Shown here one piece after another: positions 4,368-31,182 of a stretch of DNA of 33,080 bases. The DNA is from Oligosphaeraceae bacterium. Its GTDB lineage: Bacteria; Verrucomicrobiota; Lentisphaeria; Oligosphaerales; Oligosphaeraceae. The stretch's first letter is position 1, and every line of letters begins with the position of its first letter. The notes beneath the pieces were generated by a model that did no database searches, was not told where the DNA came from, and saw nothing but the letters and a program-made list of their open reading frames with translations. The stretch spans positions 1 to 33,080 of the forward strand of contig JAAZKR010000037.1 of assembly GCA_012799725.1 (NCBI GenBank), written 5' to 3'. The position numbers and the translations under genes are program-made.

Positions 4368-4391
4368 GATTTCTGCGCAATCTGCGGATTC
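4368..4391 (+). repeat. AATCTGCG-type intergenic repeat phrase, copy 1
   Basis: The phrase TTCTGCGCAATCTGCGGATT is a degenerate tandem of an eight-to-nine-base unit also found at 6645, 16087, 18383 and 21891. It lies in the 275-base gap between the OppC-like stop and the barrel start. Confidence 0.6.
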
Positions 4392-4443
4392 AAGAGATAG
4401 AAAACAGAAAGATACCTGGTCTCAAAGTCTGTTTAGGGAGCGT

Positions 4444-5617: not shown

Positions 5618-6598
5618 TCATTTCAGTCGGATACGCGGATCAACAAGCGCATAGCATATATCAGCGAGCACGGTGCCCAGCATAAAGAGCAGAGCTCCCA
5701 AGAAGACCATCGCCTTTACGGCGGCAAAATCCTGCGCCGCTACTGCATTAATGGTGTAGCCTCCCAGCCCGGGTATGCCAAAGAAATTCTCCAGCAACAA
5801 ATTGCCCATGATCAACATGAGCAATTGTATGGGTACGTTGGTAAGTATGGGTATCAGGGCATTTTTAAGCACATGCACAAAAAGCACGCGGTTTTCTGAA
5901 AGGCCCTTGGCTCGAGCACTGCGTACGTAATCGCGGTTAATCTCCTCTAAAAAAAGCGTCCGGTAAAACCTGACACCGCCACCAAAATTGCTCAATACTC
6001 CGACAAGGATAGGCAATAGTAAAAAACGCAGCATGCTTAGACCCGGCAGGAAGCCGGACACCGGCAGCAAACGCAACTGCTTGCCCAGTAGAAATTGACC
6101 GGCAATAATATAGATCAGGGTAGACACTGACATGAGCAGGACGCAGCCGATTTGCGCCATACGATCCAAGTTGCTGCCTCTGTTTGCCGCCAAATAGAGA
6201 GCGGCGGCAATATTACACAGCAGACTAGCCAGAAATATAGGCAGAGTTAGGCAGAGCGAGGGAATTATACGCTTACGTATCTCTCTGCCCAGAGGCTCTC
6301 GGTTCATGTCGGAATTGCCGAAATCACCCCAGAACATGGAAAGACTTTTCTGAAAAAAAATAGTCTGAGTGAAGCAGCGCAGGCCGCTTTCTTCACGATT
6401 GTAGAGACGGGGCAGATGATAGCCCAAGGCCTCTTTCCAGCGTGCTATCTGCTCCGGATTGGCTGCCTTGTCGCCCAAAGCCTGCCTGGCCATGTCATCC
6501 GGACTGTTTACCAGAAAAAACAGGGCAAAAACCAATAGGTTGACCCCAAGAAGTATGGGCAGCATATAAGCGATACGGCGCAGTAAATAGGTAGTCAT
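5618..6598 (-). CDS. ABC transporter permease, OppB/DppB type
   Basis: A 326-residue permease starting TYLLRRIAYMLPILLGVNLL, the standard OppB opening. It carries the EAA docking loop DYVRSARAKGLSENRVLFVH followed by VLKNALIP, and ends in the expected LVDPRIRL. The ATG at 6598 is chosen because family homology begins there. The open frame continues upstream to 6742, but that stretch reads through a repeat phrase (6645-6668) and has no family resemblance, so gene callers may wrongly extend the protein by 48 residues. No strong ribosome site is visible at 6598. It pairs with the following OppC-like permease to form the membrane channel of an oligopeptide- or nickel-type importer. It lies downstream of batE, and whether it shares that transcript is unclear. 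Confidence 0.88.
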   Translation of the reverse strand: MTTYLLRRIAYMLPILLGVNLLVFALFFLVNSPDDMARQALGDKAANPEQIARWKEALGYHLPRLYNREESGLRCFTQTIFFQKSLSMFWGDFGNSDMNREPLGREIRKRIIPSLCLTLPIFLASLLCNIAAALYLAANRGSNLDRMAQIGCVLLMSVSTLIYIIAGQFLLGKQLRLLPVSGFLPGLSMLRFLLLPILVGVLSNFGGGVRFYRTLFLEEINRDYVRSARAKGLSENRVLFVHVLKNALIPILTNVPIQLLMLIMGNLLLENFFGIPGLGGYTINAVAAQDFAAVKAMVFLGALLFMLGTVLADICYALVDPRIRLK

Positions 6599-6644
6599 AA
6601 GACTGATATGAAAACAAAGATCAAGGAACCGTTCAAAAGTTTGC

Positions 6645-6668
6645 TTTATCCGCAGATTACATCTGTAA
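6645..6668 (-). repeat. AATCTGCG-type intergenic repeat phrase, copy 2
   Basis: On the minus strand this reads as a degenerate copy, GATGTAATCTGCGGATAAA, matching the copies at 16087 and 18383. It lies about 50 bases upstream of the OppB-like ATG, in the batE-oppB gap. Confidence 0.65.
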
Positions 6669-9488: not shown

Positions 9489-9533
9489 TGGTCAACTGTC
9501 ATTGTTGATGGTCGTTCTTGGTGCTTGACGGTC
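9472..9533. repeat. GTCATTG-type repeat phrase overlapping the batD start
   Basis: GTCATTGGTCAACTGTCATTG-like units (9485-9505), followed by diverged copies (GGTCGTTC, CGGTCATCAG), run across the predicted batD initiation codon. Tandem phrases of this kind (GTCATTGGTCA units) are familiar from intergenic DNA in other bacterial genomes. Confidence 0.55.
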
Positions 9534-9542
9534 ATCAGTCTG

Positions 9543-9631
9543 TAGTTTGACCCGGGAAAGGGATCCACCCAAAGACAATGCCCTGTAAAGGCATTGCTTA
9601 CAGGCAACCAGACATACGCCACGTCAAACTA
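9543..9631. repeat. nested and competing inverted repeats in the batB-batD gap
   Basis: Outer arms TAGTTTGAC (9543-9551) and GTCAAACTA (9623-9631) are perfectly complementary. Inside, two hairpins overlap and exclude each other: CAATGCC/GGCATTG (9576-9582 with 9590-9596) and CCTGTAA/TTACAGG (9582-9588 with 9598-9604). The element lies between the fused batB-batC stop and the batD start and could modulate read-through within the operon. Confidence 0.5.
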
Positions 9632-15865: not shown

Positions 15866-15983
15866 GAACAAATTAACACAGTAAAACCTGTGCTCTTAGA
15901 CTAAAAAACAAAAAAGAGGTTCCCAATGCCTTCTTTTTGTCCACGAAAGACGCATGAAGTTAATTTTGCTGTTTTCCCGCTTT

Positions 15984-16002
15984 ACTTGGCCTCCTTGGCA
16001 TC
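15984..16002 (+). repeat. CTTGGCG-type repeat phrase, copy 2
   Basis: ACTTGGCCTCCTTGGCATC contains two diverged CTTGGC units ten bases apart. They are preceded by TTTGCTGTTTTCCCGC, which resembles the lead-in of the copy at 21822-21834. Confidence 0.5.
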
Positions 16003-16086
16003 TAAAGCCTGGGGTTAAGCATGGTTAAGTACTTATGGCGCAAGCTCTTAAGCAGGGCATATATTCGGTTCCTGATCCTAAAAACC

Positions 16087-16124
16087 TGCGTAATCTGCGT
16101 AATCTGCGCAATCTGCGGATAAAA
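16087..16124 (+). repeat. AATCTGCG-type repeat phrase, copy 3 (best preserved)
   Basis: Four successive units (TGCG, TAATCTGCG, TAATCTGCG, CAATCTGCGG) with a nine-base period are followed by ATAAAA. It lies just past the stop of the U32-like gene and is the clearest tandem in the window. Confidence 0.8.
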
Positions 16125-16167
16125 ATGGATTGTACCCACCGCCACGCCCCAAAAAAAACCGGTCTCG

Positions 16168-18382: not shown

Positions 18383-18413
18383 AAATCTGTATAATCTGCG
18401 TAATCTGCGGATT
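18383..18413 (+). repeat. AATCTGCG-type repeat phrase, copy 4
   Basis: Units AATCTGTAT, AATCTGCGT and AATCTGCGG in tandem, nine-base period, in the divergent spacer. Read on the minus strand in frame it gives the misleading peptide SADYADYTD. Confidence 0.75.
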
Positions 18414-19303: not shown

Positions 19304-21712
19304 ATGTTTTTTCAGCGTCATTGTCATGCCAGCTTCATAATGCCCCTATGCCTTGGTGCCTTGGGACTTTTGCTGCTGTTTGCCGGCTGCTCTGGCACAC
19401 AGCTGCCACCCGGCTTGCACAAAGACAACAATGGTTATCGCGCCAGTTTTGATGCAGAGCTCAGCCCCGAGGCCAAGTACGCCTTTCTCAGCTGGCAGCT
19501 GGAATTACAGCAGAATGCCGGCAGCGATAGAGAACTGTTGGCCTATCTGGCACAACTGCAAGAGAAAGAACTGAAAACCGGCACGCTGCGTCTTGCTGAA
19601 ATGATCACTAAAATGGGTGGTAACTTCACGCGTTTGGACGCCAATGGCGGCCTGCGCTTTGATCCGGCAATCTTCGCTGAAAACGAAAACTGGCAGGAAG
19701 TACTCACTTTACTGGAAAATTTGCGCACAGCTCTGAAAACACCGATTCGGGCCATGCCTAACGATGATGAGATCGCCTTGCTTTTTGGGGCGGAACACGA
19801 ATCTGCCCGGGCTGATTTCCGCGCTTGGCTGGCGGACCGCAGCCCGGAGCTGCCTGACAACCCCATACTGCCGCGAAAGAAGCTCTTGCAGGAGCTGGAC
19901 CAGATACAGGACATCATCAGCCTGAAAAGACGCTTGCTGGACTCTTGCGCCGAGGCTAATGCACTGCTCGAATCCGGCAATGGGCTGAAAGCTGTCAATC
20001 TGCTTGAGGAAACCGGCAAACTACTCCCCGACCATAGCAGTTTAAGCCTGATTGGCGACACCAAAACCCTGGCTGCCCTGGAACGGGAACGTCGTGAACT
20101 GCCCGGCAGAATGTTAAAGCAAGCTCTGGCTGCGGCTGAGAAAAGTATGCACGAGGCGCTGGAAGAATCCCAGCCCCGGGATTCTTTGCGCATGCAAAAC
20201 TCACTGGAAAGCTTGGAACGCCAGCTCACCAACCATTTGCAACTTTGGCAATCCGACCAACGTTTCAAGGACTGCCTGCTTGAACATAAAGATCAGCTGC
20301 AAAGCCTGTTGGGCAAGATGGCAAAATGGCGTGCTCACTTCTGGCAAGAAGAGTTGAGCAAGCTGGCTGAACAAAATGAATTCTGGCCGGCGGCTCTGCG
20401 CTATCAAAGCTTCATGGCTCTGCTCAGCGATGCAGATAGCGGCGATTTGGGACTGTATTTCAAGGTGCGCCCAAACAATGCCGATGGCGCCACGCTGTTT
20501 GCCGAACAAATACAAAGCACATTGAAAGACAAATTCGTCTCCACGCTGCCGGCCGCATTCAAGCATTACCTGTCTGCCATAGATCATGGCAGCAATATCG
20601 CTAACACGCATGGCATTAGCTTGACCCTGTGTAAGATGCTGCAAAGCCTCAGCGAGCTGGCCGGCGGCGAAAACACCTTGCCGGAAGAATGCCGCTCGGC
20701 ACTATCCAAGATGCGAGCCTACGCTGAACAGTCAAAGCGTAATTTAGTCAAGGACAGCCTGCAAAGCACACTGCACATCAACGAGATGTCTTCAGGCAGC
20801 CCCGGCTTGGGCATGACCTACGCCCGAGACCTGGAAAACGTCTTGCGTGGACCGGTGCAGTACGAAGGGCTGCTGCCCTGGCTCAAAATCGCCGAAAACA
20901 ATCAACCGCAAGGCCATCGTGATTACGTCATATACGGCGGCATTATCGCAGATTATAATGCCAACGAACTGGTCGAACGCAGCAGCATGCGCTCGGTTAT
21001 CCGGCATGACGAAATTCAAAAACTTGGCAATCCGGACTACAACGCCGAGGCCGGTGCCAACGCCCCACTGCGGCAAAGTGCTAAATACATCTACCGGCAG
21101 GATGTGCTGGAGCAAGTGATTACCGTAAAGGAGATTGAGCGCTTGGCGCATTTGCGCGTCTTCTTCAATATCAAGGGTCCCGGAGTAGCCGAGCTGCTTG
21201 AGATCAATGAGTTCTATAGTCGCAAATTTGCCATCGAGCAATCCCATCTCTTTGAGGACGTGCACCGTAAACACAGCATCGAGACTTATGATCGCATGGA
21301 GCTCAAGGCACCTGAAGCACCGCCCGCCCTGCTCAACGACCGCGTCTGGAGCAGTGGCGAAATGCTTGACTTCGCAAGAAAGGACAGCCTGCACAGCCTT
21401 GCCGTAAAAGTGCTCTATCAATTGCAATATTTCCCCCTGTTTCTAGCTCAGAGAGCCGAAAGATTCGCCCAGGAAAATGAATGGCAGGAAGCCGCCGAAT
21501 ACTGGGGACGCTGCTACGCGGTTTGTGAAGAACTTAATCCACCGGTGGAAGTCGCGGACGTCTTCAAATTCAGCCAAACCCCCAGTGCCTCCTGCTATGA
21601 AAGCGACATGCGCAAGCTGCAAGACAGACAAAAAGAGCTAAGGGAGCTTAAGCGTACTGTCTCCGAAAAAGCATTCGCGCAGACCTGCACCTACCTCAGA
21701 CAAAAAAAATAA
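19304..21712 (+). CDS. Large lipoprotein of unknown function
   Basis: I do not recognise the family. The 802-residue product starts with a hydrophobic leader and a lipobox, LLLLFAGC, so it should be lipid-anchored. The rest is mostly predicted alpha-helix, rich in Leu, Glu, Gln and Arg, without further membrane spans. Residues about 200-360 look coiled or TPR-like (AVNLLEETGKLLPDHSSLSL), and a more varied segment lies at about 490-640 (DYVIYGGIIADYNANELVER). The C-terminal 100 residues include NEWQEAAEYWGRCYAVCEEL, a TPR-like helix pair. The start is either ATG 19304 or ATG 19340; the second leaves a more normal signal length, and neither has a ribosome site. It follows the exported isomerase by 18 bases and may be its partner or client. 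Confidence 0.7.
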   Translation: MFFQRHCHASFIMPLCLGALGLLLLFAGCSGTQLPPGLHKDNNGYRASFDAELSPEAKYAFLSWQLELQQNAGSDRELLAYLAQLQEKELKTGTLRLAEMITKMGGNFTRLDANGGLRFDPAIFAENENWQEVLTLLENLRTALKTPIRAMPNDDEIALLFGAEHESARADFRAWLADRSPELPDNPILPRKKLLQELDQIQDIISLKRRLLDSCAEANALLESGNGLKAVNLLEETGKLLPDHSSLSLIGDTKTLAALERERRELPGRMLKQALAAAEKSMHEALEESQPRDSLRMQNSLESLERQLTNHLQLWQSDQRFKDCLLEHKDQLQSLLGKMAKWRAHFWQEELSKLAEQNEFWPAALRYQSFMALLSDADSGDLGLYFKVRPNNADGATLFAEQIQSTLKDKFVSTLPAAFKHYLSAIDHGSNIANTHGISLTLCKMLQSLSELAGGENTLPEECRSALSKMRAYAEQSKRNLVKDSLQSTLHINEMSSGSPGLGMTYARDLENVLRGPVQYEGLLPWLKIAENNQPQGHRDYVIYGGIIADYNANELVERSSMRSVIRHDEIQKLGNPDYNAEAGANAPLRQSAKYIYRQDVLEQVITVKEIERLAHLRVFFNIKGPGVAELLEINEFYSRKFAIEQSHLFEDVHRKHSIETYDRMELKAPEAPPALLNDRVWSSGEMLDFARKDSLHSLAVKVLYQLQYFPLFLAQRAERFAQENEWQEAAEYWGRCYAVCEELNPPVEVADVFKFSQTPSASCYESDMRKLQDRQKELRELKRTVSEKAFAQTCTYLRQKK

Positions 21713-21768
21713 CCACAGCCATCTCATAGACTGTGAATGCAGGGACAGAGTTAACCGGATGGACTAAC

Positions 21769-21788
21769 AGTTCAAAGTTCAAGGTTCA
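21769..21788 (+). repeat. AGTTCAA-type repeat phrase
   Basis: AGTTCAAAGTTCAAGGTTCA is three tandem seven-base units with few changes. It is the only copy in the window, directly upstream of copies of two other phrase families. Confidence 0.6.
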
Positions 21789-21833
21789 CAAAGCCCGAAT
21801 TGTCAGCAAACTCGCTTGATTTTGCTATTTTAT

Positions 21834-21861
21834 CCCTTTGCTTGGCGCTCTTGGCGGGAAA
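21834..21861 (+). repeat. CTTGGCG-type repeat phrase, copy 3
   Basis: The run CCCTTTGCTTGGCGCTCTTG, continuing GCGGGAAA, gives three nine-base CTTTGC/CTTGGCG units. Confidence 0.6.
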
Positions 21862-21890
21862 CGAGCAGATTTTATAGTGCGTTCTTAAAA

Positions 21891-21913
21891 ATCTGCATAA
21901 CCTTCGGATAAAA
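21891..21913 (+). repeat. AATCTGCG-type repeat phrase, copy 5 (diverged)
   Basis: AATCTGCATAACCTTCGGAT followed by AAAA keeps the two-unit spacing and the GGATAAAA ending of the copy at 16087, with several substitutions. Confidence 0.5.
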
Positions 21914-22020
21914 CAAATGGCAGTACGAGCAACCAGCACGCTTTGATGCCGAGCAGTGAAAAACAATAATTCTCCCGCTAAGGAATTCATTCATAAATCG
22001 AAAATCGATCACCGAAAACA

Positions 22021-24581: not shown

Positions 24582-24635
24582 AAGCAAATGTTCACTCAAA
24601 GCCACCCCATAGGCTGCGTGAAACAACAGCAACTC

Positions 24636-24678
24636 ATGCCCTTGCGCTGTCAACACAAGCGCAAGGGCATTTTTTTTT
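24636..24678 (+). terminator. intrinsic terminator of the DUF1015-lysA unit
   Basis: A perfect 13-bp stem, ATGCCCTTGCGCT (24636-24648) with AGCGCAAGGGCAT (24658-24670), encloses a 9-base loop and is followed by an unbroken T-run to 24678. It is the strongest terminator in the window and marks the end of the middle operon. Confidence 0.93.
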
Positions 24679-24718
24679 CAATGGCGTGCCGCTACATGGG
24701 CCGCATGGCTTGAAGAGA

Positions 24719-24760
24719 GCGGCGCAAATATGCGCCGCCACAGAACTAGCGCCGCCACAG
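24719..24760. repeat. GC-rich hairpin and 12-base direct repeat
   Basis: GCGGCGCA (24719-24726) and TGCGCCGC (24731-24738) form an 8-bp stem around AATA. The overlapping word GCGCCGCCACAG occurs twice, at 24732-24743 and 24749-24760. It lies between the lysA terminator and the LacI control region; its role is unknown. Confidence 0.6.
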
Positions 24761-24815
24761 AGTAATCTATGGGACGACTGTGAAATTTTGGCAACTTGCA
24801 AAAGCACACTGCCCC

Positions 24816-24864
24816 ATTTGCAAGATTAAATGCACATATTGCAATTTGCAGAATTAAATGCACA
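24816..24864 (+). repeat. pair of 21-base direct repeats upstream of the LacI promoter
   Basis: TTTGCARRATTAAATGCACA plus one leading base occurs at 24816-24836 and 24844-24864, 28 bases start to start, differing only by an AG/GA swap. Each contains a TTGCA word and a TGCAC word, the same five-base cores as the operator palindrome downstream. Confidence 0.7.
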
Positions 24865-31017: not shown

Positions 31018-31110
31018 CATTCGTTAATATTTTTGTGATGGTTCTTCCGCGTTGAACGAAAAAAATCAAAAATTATTTTGAAAGAAAACTGCCTGGCAAG
31101 CGTAAAATCG

Positions 31111-31130
31111 GGCAAAAATTGCCGTTTTTT
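31111..31130 (+). terminator. probable intrinsic terminator of the giant exported gene
   Basis: GGCAA (31111-31115) and TTGCC (31119-31123) enclose three A, followed by G and six T. The stem is short but correctly placed about 95 bases after the stop, in the gap between two convergent genes. Confidence 0.5.
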
Positions 31131-31182
31131 ACTGCCTATGGGATGACTGTGTTTTTAATAAGCAGAACAACTCTTCCGGGGC

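Follow-up and report, generated by a model that had tools for sequence, protein, structure and literature searches.

Repeat phrases in two spacers of an Oligosphaeraceae bacterium: probably the inside of one decayed MITE copy in the first, and adjoining pieces of unrelated repeats in the second

The window, i.e. the whole stretch of 33,080 nucleotides analysed here, forms contig C124 of a draft genome of 3.25 Mb, which comprises 314 contigs and is 93% complete. Two of its spacers carry stacks of short repeated phrases. The moxR-U32 spacer is flanked by moxR and by a gene for a U32 peptidase, whose nearest named relative comes from a Lentisphaerae bacterium MAG (74% identity), while the DUF1015 spacer separates an 802-aa ORF without Pfam match from a DUF1015 gene. 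The first-pass annotation had suggested that both stacks, with the order CTTGGC then AATCTGC and a similar distance between the two, reflect a composite element or a shared generating process. In what follows, co-occurrence and gene-avoidance counts refer to about 0.78 Mb, namely contigs C1-C80 (each at most 20 kb) together with the window; other counts come from genome-wide pattern or BLAST searches unless stated.

Two of the three phrases described for the DUF1015 spacer are indeed there. The AGTTCAA array, which the tandem repeat finder places at 21769-21788 (+), is a GTTCAA module sitting where the MITE family discussed below has GGTTCAAAAGTC, and CTTGGCG belongs to a 40-bp module ending CTTGGC...CTTGGC at 21816..21855 (+). 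The third, AATCTGCG, is absent from 21769-21913 according to the pattern search. The spacer has AATCTGCA instead, and from 21890 to 21913 (+) it carries AATCTGCATAACCTTCGGATAAAA, apparently a decayed AATCTGC module; this part aligns only weakly to the AATCTGC part of the MITE, with a score of 31 that was reached by 3 of 1000 shuffles. In the moxR-U32 spacer the described phrases are present: it holds CCACGAAAGA at about 15941, where we read a CCACGAAAGACGC phrase (15941..15953, +), then CTTGGCCTCCTTGGC at 15985, and three units of AATCTGCG at 16092-16117. Its own CTTGGC module occupies 15960..15999 (+). Pairwise alignment of the 40-bp modules of the two spacers gives 32 of 40 identical positions and a score of 44, the maximum of 1000 shuffles being 28; CTTGGCGCTCTTGGC at 21841 and CTTGGCCTCCTTGGC at 15985 make 2 matches where shuffling predicts 0.10. 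The order CTTGGC then AATCTGC is the same in both spacers, but the distances are unlike: about 50 bases separate the two phrases in one case, 107 in the other case.

The phrase families are far commoner in this genome than expected by chance (exact AATCTGCGTAATCTGCG, for example, occurs 33 times genome-wide versus 0 times for the reversed pattern), and they avoid genes: of 75 loosely defined AATCTGCG places, 14 fall in coding sequence, where 62 would be expected. Further spacers of the window also have AATCTGCG phrases, at 4370-4398, 6638-6660 and 18384-18412.

A genome-wide BLASTN search with the DUF1015 spacer returned at least 12 other copies, complete or partial, of the spacer's first 138 bases; most of them are 70-80% identical to it. 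They lead to a multi-copy MITE subfamily of 337-435 bp with no transposase gene between the ends. The ends of the family are inverted repeats of the CACAGYCATCCCATA type, of which the genome has 141 termini when one mismatch is allowed, the reversed control giving 1, and the 9-bp target duplications are identical at 9 of 9 positions in L114, L128, L129, L135, L176, L186 and L252. Fuller copies run from a CACAGCCATCCCATAG start through GGTTCAAAAGTC, GATTTTGCCATTTTTTCCCTTTGCTTGGCG and a AACCGCAAAG/ACGCAAAG array to a TTATGGGATGACTGTG end; some have additional CTTGGCG and AATCTGCGGATAAA beyond the array, so that a second CTTGGC stands 3' of it. Phrase arrays differ in unit number from copy to copy, and the order GTTCAA, CTTGGC, CGCAAAG, AATCTGC is never inverted among copies with several modules. 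Two further traces of such elements lie in the window. A TIR pair search found a short element with CACAG-type ends and no clear duplication at 24597..24782 (-), and 31041..31151 (-) is one end of another CACAG-type MITE (profile match, E 1.5e-19). This clear terminus is the sole use we made of the iterated whole-MITE profile, which drifted (387 matches of mixed orientation). Near the short CACAG-bounded element, a 28-bp unit is also repeated 2.3 times in tandem (24800-24864).

The copy in the DUF1015 spacer, at 21714..21958 (+), is degenerate, with 73% identity over 126 consensus positions (E 4e-13). It matches the consensus from the first terminal base, and its left terminal inverted repeat CACAGCCATCTCATA, located by pattern search at 21714..21728 (+), has one mismatch to CACAGYCATCCCATA. 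The left boundary is firm. The right one is approximate and was placed by eye; this end is degraded, and the copy has no CGCAAAG array. Sequence reading further gives a putative left target duplication, AAAAATAAC (21705..21713), which overlaps the upstream stop codon, and a putative right one, AAAAACAAT (21959..21967), the two being identical at 7 of 9 positions. The right end and this imperfect duplication are, in our reading, weak points of the assignment.

We consider it likely that the DUF1015-spacer stack is the inside of this one decayed MITE copy, and that the moxR-U32 stack is a different case, in which unrelated repeat pieces adjoin. Hence the idea of a composite element appears sound for the DUF1015 spacer, whose phrases lie inside one order-keeping MITE, but not as a common explanation of both spacers. 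Inserting at the upstream ORF's stop codon, a MITE would have brought the whole stack into the spacer in one event; the CGCAAAG array and a large part of the right end would have disappeared from this copy afterwards. The comparison of orthologous spacers suggested in the first-pass annotation speaks in the same direction, although gain or loss as a unit is judged here from one close relative. In that relative, the same-genus genome G001, the 802-aa ORF likewise has the DUF1015 gene as its neighbour (83-84% identity); the spacer between them is about 120 bases long, the MITE is absent, and a TCCGATACG array is in its place (L385, about 1383-1500).

Could the phrases simply be independent tandem expansions by slippage in tolerant spacers, so that no mobile element is needed? 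The arrays do vary in unit number and avoid genes, and in G001 other arrays (TCCGATACG; GGACACGAAG) are found close to the corresponding genes, as this explanation would have it. Slippage, however, cannot yield what the MITE copies have in common, namely a non-tandem stretch of at least 130 bp together with fixed ends and 9-bp duplications, and we regard it as quite unlikely as the whole explanation. Slippage may nonetheless shape arrays within elements. In the explanation that we favour, the repeated phrases are small tandem arrays inside the elements, expanding and shrinking between copies.

The moxR-U32 stack is built differently. Positions 16002..16133 (+) correspond to the right half of a hairpin-rich dispersed repeat family, which we call Fam2; copies on C182, C286, C3 and C255 match it across 98-132 bases with 80-84% identity. 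Inside this half, at 16066..16124 (+), lies a cassette of about 60 bp that bears AATCTGCG; loci on C127 and C246 are 82-83% identical to it in alignments of 57-59 bases. The Fam2 core has 27 matches in about 1.2 Mb, which is not an unbiased sample. Its hairpins show apparent compensating changes in a reading by eye; at gathering thresholds, no Rfam family matched the window or the Fam2 repeat of five loci. At 9516-9593 (-), between two genes, the hairpin family is represented by a further, incomplete copy (TGCCTTTACAGGGCA...).

That both spacers hold a single composite element, copied as a unit, is in our opinion highly improbable, a shade more so than slippage. The 32 of 40 identities of the common module and the common order are what such an element would leave behind. 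On the other hand, the AATCTGCG part of the moxR-U32 stack belongs to Fam2, whose copies elsewhere match the window from 16002 onward and do not have the CTTGGC module on their left, and a BLAST search found no second copy of this CTTGGC-Fam2 junction in the genome. The twofold difference in spacing argues against it too, as does the lack of enrichment of the ordered pair. With both phrases on one strand and at most 400 bases apart, CTTGGC preceded AATCTGCG 2 times in the 0.78 Mb, where 0.9 were expected and up to 4 arose in 300 trials of random placement in spacers (a model with a crude gene mask, run over 20 ordered pairs); for this ordered pair, the co-occurrence that had been proposed as a check is therefore no higher than chance. 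Of the pairs internal to the MITE, GTTCAA then CGCAAAG was found 3 times versus 0.1 expected and CGCAAAG then CTTGGC 3 times versus 0.3, all of these being small counts. Judged by their sequences, the two stacks have one module in common and are otherwise different. Separate insertions or recombination would have brought a stray CTTGGC module and half of Fam2 together between moxR and the U32 gene.

Among relatives, a same-genus MAG has a GGACACGAAG array after its U32 gene (L221, about 6370-6470), and moxR was not found near that gene. G009, G012 and G018 keep U32 and moxR together with none of the phrases present; the spacer of G012 has a long near-perfect palindrome, ACGAAAAGCACGAAACGACCCGGAAAAATTTCATGGGA (L336, about 1960-2090). 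Of 199 genomes searched, 42 have exact CACAGYCRTCCCATAG sites, our own included, and the AATCTGCG pair has a patchy distribution, being present in 8 genomes out of 60. G001 has neither an exact CACAGYCRTCCCATAG site nor an exact AATCTGCG pair. G016 has 84 exact copies of AATCTGCGTAATCTGCG and no exact CACAG end; many of those copies are no more than a few hundred bases away from the start of a contig.

As to what moved the MITE, the mover has to be inferred from another genome, because our own holds only a broken remnant of an IS4 transposase. In the same bacterial family, the single-contig genome G007 contains a 1550-bp element with MITE-type ends and 9 of 9 identical duplications in three copies. 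The element has one transposase gene, with DDE_Tnp_1 and DUF4372, and the product matches NF033592 (transpos_IS4_1) with 226 bits against a curated cut-off of 115, which places it in the IS4 family. An IS4 transposase acting in trans would then have moved the MITE. It is barely credible that the IS1380-type transposase on C198 did so instead: it is the sole DDE_Tnp_1 match in the genome and has a TACAGCTATCCCATA end about 300 bp upstream, but the ends of its own element are CCTAAAAAAAGCAGT...ACTGCTTTTTTTAGG, the nearby CACAG end looks like that of a neighbouring MITE, and in G007 such ends are borne by an IS4 element. This candidate partner was dropped once its own ends were read. The same was done with a 2037-bp segment of C134 between two CACAG ends, which encodes a LacI-type regulator and no transposase. 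The C198 sequence itself (G000:C198; L224, about 868 to end) is an IS1380-type insertion sequence with CCTAAAAAAAGCAGT ends that is cut by the contig end; its end sequence also occurs in L150 and L170.

We found no paper with the exact phrases and no description of the MITE family in a limited open-access collection of the literature. The family is new but of a known kind, and each of its properties has precedents. It shares its ends and the 9-bp duplication with an IS4-family insertion sequence, the G007 element; unlike IS4 elements it carries no transposase gene, and repeat modules take the place of the core. BrickBuilt of Porphyromonas gingivalis is likewise a MITE with a tandem minisatellite inside, lying between genes (PMC4596501), though it has one 23-nt unit, whereas the present family has several units in fixed order and a host from another phylum. 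The BOX elements of Streptococcus pneumoniae are modular repeats whose tandem middle varies; they have inverted ends as well as target duplications, and different families nest within each other (PMC3049150); the likeness is one of description, in a different host. TIMEs are mosaic gene-less elements derived from Tn3 that share ends, exchange cores and insert in AT-rich DNA (PMC4133298), with 38-bp Tn3 ends and 5-6 bp duplications instead of the IS4-type ends and 9 bp seen here. Finally, REP/BIME sequences are short hairpins repeated between genes, as Fam2 at moxR-U32 appears to be, except that the arms of Fam2 differ among copies.

A third, MITE-like element type has GTCCAAAAAGG ends and apparent CTANNTA-like duplications of roughly 6-8 bp. 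The AATCTGCG phrase is present in 20 of 20 listed end pairs of this type, a count in which some pairs overlap and which is biased, some loci having been fetched for the phrase; AATCTGCG-bearing elements of this sort are seen at L012, L028, L096, L175 and others. The cassette loci on C127 and C246 terminate in a GTCCAAAAAGG-type terminus, and about 60 bases around AATCTGCG are alike in GTCCAAAAAGG-type loci and in the moxR-U32 copy. This likeness suggests a cassette common to element types. We tentatively entertain, as a conjecture that has somewhat the worse of the odds, that unrelated families (CACAG/9-bp, GTCCAAAAAGG and Fam2) exchange minisatellite cassettes from a common pool, the cassettes spreading independently of any one transposase.

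Many of the terminal repeats stand no further than about 300 bp from a contig end, and this suggests a reason for the positions of the breaks in the draft genome. For this bacterium, many puzzling spacer phrases would be the insides of small transposable elements, and one MITE family gains defined ends, a target duplication and a likely source of transposase. Less usual is the recurrence of one AATCTGCG-bearing cassette in several unrelated element families. If the reading of a shared cassette pool is true, it would provide a case for how non-autonomous elements acquire their cores.
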